This document shows, piece after piece, positions 40,346-43,721 of a DNA stretch of 64,000 nucleotides (position 1 is its first letter; each line of letters opens with the position of its first letter). This stretch comes from Flagellimonas taeanensis (GTDB taxonomy: Bacteria > Bacteroidota > Bacteroidia > Flavobacteriales > Flavobacteriaceae): the NCBI RefSeq assembly GCF_003584105.1, contig NZ_QXFO01000027.1, forward strand, positions 124,001-188,000, written 5' to 3'. Below the pieces are notes generated by a model that did no database searches, was not told the origin of the DNA, and saw nothing but the letters and a program-made list of their open reading frames with translations. Both the position numbers and the translations under genes were made by a program.

Positions 40346-40389
40346 TTACACTTTATATTTGTTTTTAGTGTAATTAAGTTCTATATTTG
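40346..40389 (+). promoter_or_regulatory. Promoter of the IS1595-type transposase with overlapping operator
   Basis: TTTG (40358-40361), 20 bases, TATATTTG (40382-40389): a perfect TTTG-N20-TAnnTTTG promoter giving a leader of about 15 bases. TTACACT (40346) and AGTGTAA (40367) form a perfect 7-base dyad around the -33 box, a likely place for repressor binding. Confidence 0.75.
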
Positions 40390-40409: not shown

Positions 40410-41321
40410 ATGATCAATAAGGACTTCAATTCAATCTTAGAACTTATCCAAGCCTTTCCAGACGAGCAGTCATGCATCGACCATTTGGAAGAACTTAGAT
40501 GGAACGGTAACGTTGTAAGTCCTTTTGACCCATCATCAAAAGTGTATGATTGTAAGGGGAACAAATATAAATGTAAGAATACTGGTAAATACTTCAACGT
40601 AAAGACCAACACAATTTTCGATAATACCAAGATGCCATTGCAAAAATGGTTCCTTGCTATTTGGTTGGTTACTTCCCATAAGAAAGGTATTTCTTCTCTA
40701 CAATTGGGCAGGGATTTGAACATTACCCAAAAATCCGCTTGGTTCATGCTTCAAAGGATAAGGCAATGCTTTGGACTTGACAATGACCAAATGGAAGGGG
40801 AGATCGAAGCGGATGAAACATACGTTGGTGGTAAAGAGGGAAACAAGCACGCTGATAAAAGAATCAAAAATGCCCAAGGTGGTGTCGGTAAGGCTGCCGT
40901 ACTTGGAATGGTACAAAGAGGTGGTAACGTTTCGGCAAAAAAGGTGGATGATGTTACCATGCAGACATTGACCAATGAGATATTGAAGAACGTAAAAGAG
41001 GGCGCAAAACTATATACAGACGATTTCACCTCTTACAAAAGGCTTAAAAGGATATACGACCACAAGTTTGTGAAGCACAGCAGAAGCCAGTACGTTAAAG
41101 GACGTGTCCACACCAACACGATAGAAAGCTTTTGGGCACTTCTAAAGCGTGGGATTTTTGGTATCTACCATTTCACCTCTAAAAAGCATTTGCAGTTGTA
41201 CGTGGACGAATTTTGCTTTAGATACAATACTAGGGAAGTTGGTGAATCTGCTAGATTTGACCTGCTTTTAACTAATATCGAAAATAGAATTAAATATGTT
41301 GATTTAATTAAAAATGCTTAA
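40410..41321 (+). CDS. IS1595-family (ISXO2-like) transposase
   Basis: The 303-residue protein has an N-terminal zinc-ribbon-like part that has lost most cysteines (residues 20-60: YDCKGNKYKCKNTGKYFNVK), a helix-turn-helix (ITQKSAWFMLQRIRQ), and the ISXO2-like DDE domain with EIEADETYVGG, LYTDDFTSYKRL and HTNTIESFWALLKRG, the three acidic/Asn catalytic positions. It looks complete and has a strong promoter. I could not find matching terminal inverted repeats or a target duplication, so the limits of the insertion sequence are not known. The proteasome-like gene starts 8 bases after its stop. Confidence 0.88.
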   Translation: MINKDFNSILELIQAFPDEQSCIDHLEELRWNGNVVSPFDPSSKVYDCKGNKYKCKNTGKYFNVKTNTIFDNTKMPLQKWFLAIWLVTSHKKGISSLQLGRDLNITQKSAWFMLQRIRQCFGLDNDQMEGEIEADETYVGGKEGNKHADKRIKNAQGGVGKAAVLGMVQRGGNVSAKKVDDVTMQTLTNEILKNVKEGAKLYTDDFTSYKRLKRIYDHKFVKHSRSQYVKGRVHTNTIESFWALLKRGIFGIYHFTSKKHLQLYVDEFCFRYNTREVGESARFDLLLTNIENRIKYVDLIKNA

Positions 41322-41329
41322 TTTGTAAT

Positions 41330-42127
41330 ATGTCTTTAGGTATTGTGATAAAAGCTCCAGAAGGTATAGTTCTGGCAGCGGAAAGCCGAGTGACCCTGAC
41401 AAATACAGATTCTCAGGGCAATAAACTGCATGTAAACTTTGATAATGCCGATAAAGTTTTGTCTTTTAATGGCAGTTATAACAATATTGGCGTAGTTACC
41501 TTCGGTGCTGCTGCTATTGGTGTTCGTACAGCGCATAGCTTTATACCTGAATTTGAGACCACTCTTAGTGATGATAGGCAACTTAGTGTTTTGGAATTTA
41601 CACAATCCCTAAGCGACTTCTTTTCACAGCAGTGGACAGAGGCTGGTATGCCAGATGCCGCAAACTATCAAGGCCAGAACATGACATTTATTGTTGCTGG
41701 ATATAATCAAGGGGATGCCTATGGATCAGTTTATCAATTTGATATACCTCGTGCTCCAAATCCACGACAGCAAAACCCAAATAGAGAGGATTTTGGAATC
41801 ACTTGGGGCGGTCAAAGAGAGATTGTGGATCGGATGATTATGGGGTATGACACAAGGGCAATTCAATTATTGATTCAGAACGGATTTATACAACCTGAAA
41901 ATCAAGCGAATGTTTTGAACGCTTTACGATCACTTCAACTATCTTTACCGATTCAATTCATGCCTTTACAAGATTGTGTCAATTTAGCCGTTCTATTTAT
42001 TAGGACAACAATCGAAACCCAAGAATTAACCATTGGGCTTAGGGGATGTGGTGGTGCTATAGATGTGGCTATTATAACAAAAAACAGCCCATTGGAGTTT
42101 ATAAAGAAGAAAGAATTAAGTATATAA
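41330..42127 (+). CDS. Proteasome-fold (Ntn-hydrolase) protein with possible N-terminal serine
   Basis: The N-terminus MSLGIVIKAPEGIVLAAESR lines up with proteasome beta subunits: after methionine removal Ser would take the place of catalytic Thr1, Glu17 and Arg19 fall where Asp17 and Arg19 lie in beta subunits, and ADKVLSF supplies a lysine like Lys33. Later segments (NIGVVTFGAAAIG; ITWGGQREIVDRMI; GCGGAIDVAIITK) fit the rest of the fold. There is no propeptide. The 265 residues are longer than beta subunits. The gene is 8 bases downstream of the transposase and is probably read from its promoter. Peptidase activity and substrate are unknown; it might also be an inactive structural relative. 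Confidence 0.7.
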   Translation: MSLGIVIKAPEGIVLAAESRVTLTNTDSQGNKLHVNFDNADKVLSFNGSYNNIGVVTFGAAAIGVRTAHSFIPEFETTLSDDRQLSVLEFTQSLSDFFSQQWTEAGMPDAANYQGQNMTFIVAGYNQGDAYGSVYQFDIPRAPNPRQQNPNREDFGITWGGQREIVDRMIMGYDTRAIQLLIQNGFIQPENQANVLNALRSLQLSLPIQFMPLQDCVNLAVLFIRTTIETQELTIGLRGCGGAIDVAIITKNSPLEFIKKKELSI

Positions 42128-42152
42128 TGCTCTCATTTTAACAAAAAAGGAT

Positions 42153-42353
42153 ATGAAAAATTCAGTAGTTTTTGGAACGTTTAATGTTCCTTTGTTGAGC
42201 GAATCTCTTACAGCTTCGTATACCGCTCCTGGATTGCTTCCAGATGAAGAACAGGCAAAAATAAATAATGCTAGTGTTGAAGAAAAACAGTTGTCTAACT
42301 TCAATCAAAGTCTAAAAAAAGGTTTGGAATGGAATCCTAAAGAAGAGAAATAA
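42153..42353 (+). CDS. 66-residue protein downstream of the proteasome-like gene
   Basis: A small protein MKNSVVFGTFNVPLLSESLT with a hydrophilic, probably disordered second half rich in Glu, Lys and Gln. It starts 25 bases after the proteasome-like gene and ends at a strong terminator, so it belongs to the same transcript. A substrate, tag or inhibitor of the Ntn-hydrolase is a natural idea but untested; the C-terminus (EWNPKEEK) has no Gly-Gly as ubiquitin-like modifiers do. Confidence 0.6.
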   Translation: MKNSVVFGTFNVPLLSESLTASYTAPGLLPDEEQAKINNASVEEKQLSNFNQSLKKGLEWNPKEEK

Positions 42354-42385
42354 AAAAAGGCCATTAATTACCATTGGCCTTTTTT
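42352..42385. terminator. Bidirectional terminator
   Basis: AAAAAAGGCCA and TGGCCTTTTTT form a perfect 11-base stem around an 11-base loop. It ends the transposase/proteasome-like transcript and, read the other way, the HicB-like pair; the stop codon of the leftward gene lies inside the loop. Confidence 0.9.
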
Positions 42386-42633
42386 GTAACTGGTAAGTTT
42401 TTTCTAAACTCGACAAATTCTGCATAGCTTTCTTCCAATCCATCGGGAGGGTCAATCTCTAACTCAAAAATAATGTCTAAATAAGAAATTTCATCCATCT
42501 CCTCTTTTAGTGCATAGCAAATTTCAAAATTGTTTAAGTTTTGATAAAAAGCCCCTTCAGGGAAATCTCCATCATCCATCACAACACATGCTTTGGATTG
42601 AATATATTCTGAGACTTCCTCGTAGCTATACAT
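42364..42633 (-). CDS. 89-residue acidic hypothetical protein
   Basis: An acidic protein starting MYSYEEVSEYIQSKACVVMD with a long alternating helix/strand pattern (ISYLDIIFELEIDPPDGLEE). It begins one base after the stop of the HicB-like gene, so the two are translated together. It has no HicA features (no basic double-stranded-RNA-binding fold or catalytic His), so it is not an ordinary HicA toxin. Function unknown. Confidence 0.6.
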   Translation of the reverse strand: MYSYEEVSEYIQSKACVVMDDGDFPEGAFYQNLNNFEICYALKEEMDEISYLDIIFELEIDPPDGLEESYAEFVEFRKNLPVTKKANGN

Positions 42634-42634
42634 A

Positions 42635-42835
42635 CTAAATCAAATTGGGTTCTGAAAACTCAATATTGTCCTGTCTAGCTTCAGTCATTTTTACATAATT
42701 CATAAAAGATTTATGCAATTTTTCCTTAGCTTCTTCAACAGTAGAACCTTGGGCAATAACACCAGAATACTCATTGATAAATGCCAAAAAGTTCCCTGTG
42801 TCCTTGTTTTTAATAATTGTTCCTGTGAGCTTCAT
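42635..42835 (-). CDS. HicB-like antitoxin-domain protein
   Basis: The 66 residues match the N-terminal HicB RNase-H-like unit: IIKNKDTGNFLAFINEYSGV followed by AQGSTVEEAKEKLHKSFMNY. HicB normally neutralises the HicA mRNA interferase and carries a C-terminal DNA-binding part, which is absent here. The partner gene downstream is not HicA, so this is an orphan or a member of a different two-gene system. A -7 box lies 22 bases upstream. Confidence 0.72.
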   Translation of the reverse strand: MKLTGTIIKNKDTGNFLAFINEYSGVIAQGSTVEEAKEKLHKSFMNYVKMTEARQDNIEFSEPNLI

Positions 42836-43241: not shown

Positions 43242-43322
43242 CCTAAGTCATTTCTAATCATTTACATCCGTTTACAAACGAAAGCAAACAATTCAATACC
43301 GATTGGCCCATTTCCCTGCCCC

Positions 43323-43388: not shown

Positions 43389-43721
43389 ATGAATTCACTG
43401 AAAAACAAAGTACAGTTGATTGGACACTTGGGCAGCGACCCGGAAATCATCACCCTTGAGAATGGGGGCAAATTGGCCAAGTTTTCCCTGGCCACCAACG
43501 AGACCTATAAAAATGCGGAGGGCGAAAAGGTGACGGACACCCAATGGCACAACATTGTGGCTTGGGGCAAAATGGCGGAGATTGCCGAAAATTACCTCGC
43601 CAAGGGTAAGGAAATTATGGTAGAGGGCAAACTGATGTCCCGCTCCTACGAGACCAAGGAAGGGGAGAAGAGGTACATCACCGAGATCAAGTGCAACGAG
43701 CTCTTGATGTTGGGGAAATAA
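43389..43721 (+). CDS. ssb: Single-stranded DNA-binding protein
   Basis: An OB-fold SSB of 110 residues: LKNKVQLIGHLGSDPEIITL, KLAKFSLATNETYKN, DTQWHNIVAWGKMAEIAENY and GKLMSRSYETKEGEKRYITE match the SSB core throughout. It ends directly after the OB fold (NELLMLGK) and lacks the flexible tail with acidic DDDxPF tip that recruits repair proteins, so it is probably an accessory SSB, not the main one. It sits at the edge of the island and has its own terminator. Confidence 0.92.
   Translation: MNSLKNKVQLIGHLGSDPEIITLENGGKLAKFSLATNETYKNAEGEKVTDTQWHNIVAWGKMAEIAENYLAKGKEIMVEGKLMSRSYETKEGEKRYITEIKCNELLMLGK

Follow-up and report, generated by a model that had tools for sequence, protein, structure and literature searches.

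Organisation of the locus

The window, a 64,000-nt stretch of contig NZ_QXFO01000027.1 of Flagellimonas taeanensis, contains the gene of a proteasome-like protein, hereafter T, which lies directly behind an IS1595-type transposase gene and is followed by a gene for a protein of 66 aa (Table 1). In agreement with the distances of the initial annotation, 8 nt separate the transposase stop codon, which ends at 41321, from the ATG of T, and the 66-aa ORF starts 25 nt past the stop codon of T. The GC content is 0.36 over 38.7–43.2 kb versus 0.45–0.46 in the flanks, and the gene at 43389–43721 was recognised by eye as ssb-like from its N-terminal sequence. In our best explanation, T and the 66-aa gene would be cargo that follows the transposase gene as a small operon, within a low-GC island close to ssb; the explanation as a whole, together with the function proposed below, is given a probability of about 0.5.

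Table 1. Features of the T locus, with positions in the window.
Feature	Position	Strand	Basis
IS1595-type (ISXO2-like) transposase, 303 aa	40410..41321	+	PF12762, E 3.2e-43
T, proteasome-like Ntn protein, 265 aa, without propeptide	41330..42127	+	ORF, predicted fold, relatives
Ser2 codon (mature Ser1), putative nucleophile	41333..41335	+	Structural alignment and relatives
66-aa gene, probable small partner, N-terminal stretch FGTFNVPLLSESLTASYTA	42153..42353	+	Similar stretch directly behind T in L067, L072, L079, L070 and L064
Terminator-like inverted repeat, boundary of T operon and convergent pair	42353..42385	.	By eye
89-aa gene of the convergent pair behind the cargo	42364..42633	-	No Pfam match
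66-aa UPF0150-like (HicB-like) gene of the same convergent pair	42635..42835	-	PF21748, E 1.6e-5

The single terminator of the initial annotation was retained as an inverted repeat read by eye (AAAAAAGGCCA, 11-nt loop, TGGCCTTTTTT), but it was absent from the automatic terminator scan, which covered loops of ≤8 nt. The PF21748 match of the UPF0150-like gene, 25.2 bits, was below the cut-off of 27.3. A convergent pair of like size and place was seen by eye also behind the P63C cargo gene of a transposase relative (L138).

Two further stretches were recorded in the vicinity. The stretch CCGTTTACAAACGAAAGCAAAC at 43268–43289 (+) precedes ssb; it is conserved in genome G229 of the same genus and less strictly on the ssb side of five other Flavobacteriaceae loci and one further locus (L129, L130, L133, L137, L145 and L146), and is perhaps an operator or attachment site. 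This palindrome-rich stretch has the look of an attachment site, but was present on one side only in the loci searched. Upstream of the transposase gene (40355–40385) a TTACACT...AGTGTAA palindrome, kept in L106, L108, L112, L114 and L115, is a possible operator.

Start site and predicted fold of T

The ORF of T begins MSLGIVIKAPEGIVLAAESR, and the previous in-frame stop is only 6 codons before the ATG (open frame 271 versus 265), which leaves no room for a long propeptide, in line with the earlier description of a propeptide-less protein. The possibility that the transposase had truncated T at its 5′-end was rejected, because relatives begin at the same residue and, in 39 of 66, an in-frame stop is present at most 10 codons upstream of the start.

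The predicted structure of T reached a pLDDT of 95.6 and a pTM of 0.91. The best VIA-align match was the Anbu structure 5nyw (Z 20.4, rmsd 2.8 over 199 residues), and a second Anbu structure, 5lox, gave Z 19.8 and the yeast beta5 subunit 4qv8 Z 19.3 (rmsd 2.7 over 185 residues), with a range of Z 18.7–20.4 among the best 50 structural matches listed; the best Foldseek E-value was 7.8e-9. Residue 2 of the model superposes on chain residue 1 (Thr1) of the Anbu and beta5 structures, which places a serine at the nucleophile position, as was initially suggested. Helices of the model include residues 68–78, 87–104, 164–171, 175–183, 189–202 and 213–232, and the last strand is 253–259, after which the chain ends 6 residues later without a C-terminal helix.

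At the sequence level, T alone matched the proteasome family PF00227 with E 0.15 (12.2 bits, below the curated cut-off of 22.4), and the relative L007 passed the cut-off with 23.1 bits. This family was matched at E ≤1 by 19 of 51 aligned members (best 4.9e-5), and the 51-row family profile found a proteasome beta chain at E 8.3e-6. Single-sequence searches with T returned no PDB chain at E ≤1, and neither the plasmid searches nor the viral-contig search with the single protein gave a match; these searches were weak, and alignments were needed to find the relatives. On the basis of the model and the family profile, the predicted fold is clear and the resemblance to proteasomes is more than chance, which upholds the proteasome fold of the initial annotation.

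Active-site residues and their conservation

Conservation at the start was counted in 66 full-length relatives, i.e. loci with a readable start, from which broken, partial or duplicate ones had been dropped (for example L036, L041, L043, L061, L069, L072, L073, L078, L082 and L087). Since several of the 66 are near-identical, the counts are not independent. Mature position 1 was Ser in 60, Thr in 5 and Ala in 1, and Ser in the window; the conserved N-terminus expected among homologues was thus found, with Ser or Thr in 65 of 66. The start codon was ATG in 62 relatives, TTG in 2, GTG in 1 and ATT in 1. The relative with Ala at position 1 (L021, 4810, beginning MAFVITLY) is possibly, judged by this residue, an inactive member.

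With Ser counted as residue 1, T has Glu17 and Arg19, and the lysine of the ADKV segment, mature residue 41, was aligned with the lysine of the beta subunit 8oix in the profile alignment; all three residues had been pointed out before. In the 51-row alignment (the window and 50 of the 66 relatives; the 16 outside it include the Ala member L021 and the four with non-ATG starts), position 17 was Asp in 44 and Glu in 7 rows, the ADKV lysine was invariant (51/51), and the TFG glycine was kept in 49 rows. By alignment, equivalents of proteasome Asp17, Lys33 and Gly47 are thereby present in the T family. The residues at the places of Asp166 and Ser169 (positions 237 and 240, by our own count from the GG pair) were not kept. 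An N-terminal nucleophile enzyme is the natural reading of T from the predicted fold, the start site and the conserved residues.

Distribution of T relatives

T matches were sparse among close relatives of the host: 2 of 299 genomes drawn from the same family, own genome included, with no match in the one same-genus genome among the 299, and 4 of 395 genomes drawn from the phylum, again including the own genome. Relatives were nevertheless, judged by their record titles, spread across many phyla and archaea (61 loci), and 12 loci, with 3 more in a further search, were in viral contigs. Sixteen Pseudomonas phage records contained a distant homologue of ca. 21% identity, and in a viral structure library a siphovirus fold close to T was named “Proteasome beta type-2 subunit”.

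The distant homologues of Pseudomonas phages LESphi2 and LPPA33 (L003 and L004) had differing annotated starts; one was named proteasome subunit beta and the other hypothetical protein, and the homologous frame extends further upstream. In the L081 and L084 region, the viral contig L084 had T-like frames on opposite strands, 3694(-) and 2068(+), one of them broken. The clade of L062, L063 and L071 has an insertion between the first strands that is rich in cysteine and resembles a zinc ribbon, as observed in the L006/L062 and L071 sequences, with weak Zn_ribbon matches.

The transposase and its variable cargo slot

At E ≤0.001 the transposase was matched once in its own genome, and matches were present in 62 of the 299 genomes drawn from the family. 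Of 19 loci compared (the window and 18 relatives), 13 have an ORF on the same strand that begins -7 to +9 nt from the transposase end; for L137, where the transposase is broken, the distance was taken from the end of the match. According to Pfam scans of ten proteins, the slot holds genes for Bro-N (L130), RhuM (L131), P63C (L134 and L138) and KilA-N (L146), and the proteins of L136, L139, L140 and L141 received no Pfam name; L129 had HTH and M78 names for a gene at +71, outside the slot. By eye, the slot genes of L133, L135 and L137 look RhuM-like. An ssb-like gene, recognised by eye from its N-terminus, was at most 4 kb away in 10 of the 19 loci. No convincing terminal inverted repeats were found around the transposase and T, and the same-genus flank was too divergent for the element boundaries to be placed.

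IS1595-family elements with passenger genes are termed transporter IS. The window resembles them in having an unrelated, variable gene directly behind an ISXO2-like transposase, and differs in that no terminal inverted repeats were found. The initial placing of T behind an IS1595-type transposase is supported, at a position where relatives carry other genes and in a low-GC island. As a general companion of T, the transposase did not hold up: besides the window only L071 has an IS1595 transposase near T, on the other strand, and no transposase family was among the 25 commonest families listed for 98 scanned neighbours of T.

The small ORF behind T

A motif, approximately FG-x3-[IV]P-x-[IL]-x-E-x-x-L-x-A-x-Y-x-A, is common to the ORF directly behind T in six loci: the window, L064, L067, L070, L072 and L079, i.e. 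three Bacteroidota, an armatimonadote MAG, an actinobacterial MAG and a viral contig. It is imperfect in L064 and L072, and falls within a conserved N-terminal stretch of about 20 residues, after which the tail is divergent. The pairs window/L067, window/L072 and L079/L070 each scored above all 1000 shuffles, in a test that covered 48 of 66 pairs (those scoring ≥22). When 27,372 frames were searched with a motif model made from L079 and L070 alone, the window ORF ranked third and the L064 downstream ORF fourth behind the two sequences of the model itself, with E-values of 1.4 and 1.6 that are without significance.

Co-occurrence was assessed by counting ATG ORFs of 40–130 aa with a start at -20..+40 nt of the T stop. 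Nine near-duplicates and two loci with <450 nt downstream were dropped, and L082, L087 and L088 were outside the sample. Such an ORF was found in 11 of 13 loci of the window subfamily (MSLGIV...PEG...) versus 5 of 45 other T loci, and at 480 of 2600 random positions. The Fisher probability of the former comparison, 1.2e-6, overstates the difference because the rows are related, and the list of 13, made by hand from sequence similarity, was fixed before the test and after several downstream ORFs had been seen. Three of the five positives outside the subfamily (L062, L071 and L081) are on tree branches that adjoin it. Within the subfamily, the motif was absent from five of the eleven small ORFs (L068, L080, L083, L085 and L086), of which L080 and L086 have another short stretch in common, and L065 and L069 had no ORF at the tested place.

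The predicted structure of the small protein was poor (pLDDT 58.9), with two short strands around the motif, and in its own genome the protein matched only its own gene at E ≤10, with no second copy. On this sequence evidence the link is good, and the 66-aa protein is probably a partner coupled to T, as had been proposed.

Restriction operons and other neighbours

Six T genes (L032, L033, L035, L037, L044 and L063) are situated in type I restriction operons. The order is hsdR-hsdS-T-hsdM in L032, L033, L035 and L037 according to BLAST clusters and gene maps; in L044 hsdS and T are separated by one 444-aa gene, and in L063 one small ORF lies in the gap before hsdM. The R, S and M genes were confirmed by Pfam or PADLOC in L033 and L063; in the other four operons, S and M are taken from 5 Methylase_S and 5 N6_Mtase matches among the 98 neighbours, and R from BLAST clusters. 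In the tree, which does not include L032, L063 is on a branch distant from the others (support 1.000), and L035/L037 are separated from L033/L044. As these lie on separate branches, the association of T with restriction genes had two or more origins by the phylogeny, barring transfer of whole operons with replacement of T. None of the six restriction-linked T genes had a small ORF by the same test, and these relatives may act on other clients; by analogy with ClpXP, HsdR is the obvious candidate. ClpXP degrades HsdR in Escherichia coli in the course of restriction alleviation (PMC4231737).

Other defence neighbours were ThsB in L002/L008, 144 nt downstream of T (PADLOC E 4.2e-77), and, on the upstream side, a type II endonuclease at 28 nt in L045, a PDC-S28 gene in L067 (1036.7 bits) and, two genes away from T, one of Schlafen type in L042. 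Many T loci had no recognised defence neighbour, and in the window none was found among the scanned neighbours beyond the UPF0150-like pair. Among the 25 of 123 neighbour families listed, most appear once, and ordinary metabolism is included.

Comparison with known proteasome homologues

Twenty-two homologues of the proteasome in prokaryotes, with Thr1 or Ser1, were reported by Fuchs, Alva and Lupas (2021; PMC8665760). Since that paper already lists these subfamilies, Ser1 included, the supposed novelty of serine-type relatives outside Anbu and HslV is withdrawn. Among the homologues are the PMI types with insertions between H3 and H4, for which the paper argues that the insertion could hinder ring stacking. 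In the text available it reports no suggestive genomic context for the homologues, and it describes connectase, an archaeal member of the same superfamily, as a specific protein ligase. The T model has two extra helices (175–183 and 189–202) between helices 164–171 and 213–232, with H3 and H4 assigned by order, and because these are at the place of the PMI insertion, T is probably, by its model, a member of the PMI group in this known superfamily. T has in common with the PMI group the proteasome beta-like core, Thr1 or Ser1, the lack of a propeptide and a scattered distribution; with PMI-2 to PMI-6 the insertion between H3 and H4; and with PMI-4 the occurrence also in phages. Unlike that group as there described, T has a context, i.e. 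the probable small partner, the transposase slot and the restriction operons.

Anbu gave the best structural matches and is likewise without propeptide, but it has the C-terminal helix H5, which T lacks, and Thr where T has Ser. The nucleophile of Anbu is Thr. The beta subunits of the 20S proteasome share with T the fold, the register, the lysine, Asp/Glu17 and the GG-x-ID segment, and differ in having a propeptide and in keeping Asp166 and Ser169. For HslV, a neighbouring gene of the unfoldase HslU would be expected; no AAA+ family was matched in the five scanned window neighbours of T. Connectase, according to PMC8665760, lacks H1 and H2 and has two helices between S3 and S4, whereas T keeps helices 68–78 and 87–104; the connectase Pfam family was matched weakly by 4 of 51 T members (best E 0.11). 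What looks new is thus the genomic context and not the kind of protein, as no earlier report of these proteins in restriction operons or with a small partner was found in the searches of open-access papers, and one sentence of PMC8665760 points the same way. The earlier proposal of a serine Ntn peptidase on a mobile unit is thereby partly supported, in the fold, the serine at the nucleophile position, the lack of a propeptide, the conserved N-terminus, the place behind the transposase and the probable coupling to the small protein, without the novelty of a serine-type family.

Proposed mechanism and alternatives

We propose, at the even odds given above, that T and the small protein are a mobile serine Ntn enzyme and its dedicated ligand, from a family engaged in conflicts between elements, phages and hosts. 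The N-terminal amino group is established as the base in proteasomes. In T, the start Met would be removed and the amino group of Ser1 would serve as base, making T a propeptide-less, serine-nucleophile Ntn hydrolase of the PMI type, and as the H3–H4 insertion could, following the argument in PMC8665760, hinder ring stacking, a small, specific enzyme is favoured over a barrel protease. The conserved head and divergent tail of the small protein suggest that T would recognise the head. As a first guess, the small protein would be a specific substrate, cut or transferred as by connectase, with an inhibitor or adaptor role ranked slightly after. With relatives in viral contigs, within type I restriction operons and next to other defence genes, a role of the family in conflicts between mobile elements, phages and hosts is probable.

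Less probably, T is a harmful protease to which the small protein serves as inhibitor or antitoxin, as in a toxin-antitoxin-like pair on mobile elements and phages. The two-gene layout, with starts -14 to +29 nt of the T stop, would fit, as would the ParE-like gene that follows the pair in the viral contig L079 (PF05016, E 2e-5); the other T subfamilies, including the restriction-linked ones, are however without the small gene. It is doubtful that T works on its own as a PMI-type protease, with the small gene as a functionally unrelated hitchhiker: short ORFs are not rare at such places, as the random positions indicate, and five of the eleven small ORFs miss the motif, yet the motif is common to loci across phyla and the ORF is enriched in the subfamily (11/13 versus 5/45, with the caution on related rows).

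A service of T to the transposon, for example by limiting the transposase, as other slot genes may, appears improbable: T does sit in the slot otherwise taken by Bro-N, RhuM, P63C or KilA-N genes, but these are from unrelated families and T elsewhere rarely adjoins a transposase. That T is a catalytically dead scaffold with the fold kept, to which the missing Asp166 and Ser169 equivalents and the Ala of L021 would point, is hardly probable, as even highly diverged members retain Ser/Thr1, Asp/Glu17, the lysine and the glycine.

The preferred reading of enzyme and dedicated ligand allows a bolder, rather speculative version, in which the two would be an enzyme-tag pair: T would cut its partner or, like connectase, transfer the divergent tail to another protein, and phages, transposons and type I restriction operons would repeatedly have taken up relatives of T for use as a post-translational weapon or control switch. 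Such a specific pair, if true, would be of practical use, as is the case with connectase.

For the proteasome homologues of 2021, which are without assigned function, the small partner, the cargo slot and the restriction operons are testable handles, and a simple Ntn enzyme, monomeric or ring-forming, has in the small protein a candidate ligand. In the restriction operons, T may represent a proteolytic arm in phage-host or element-host conflict; with HsdR being degraded by ClpXP, a protease gene inside the operon suggests a built-in counterpart. The context of T is thereby a first hint at the function of a little-explored enzyme family.
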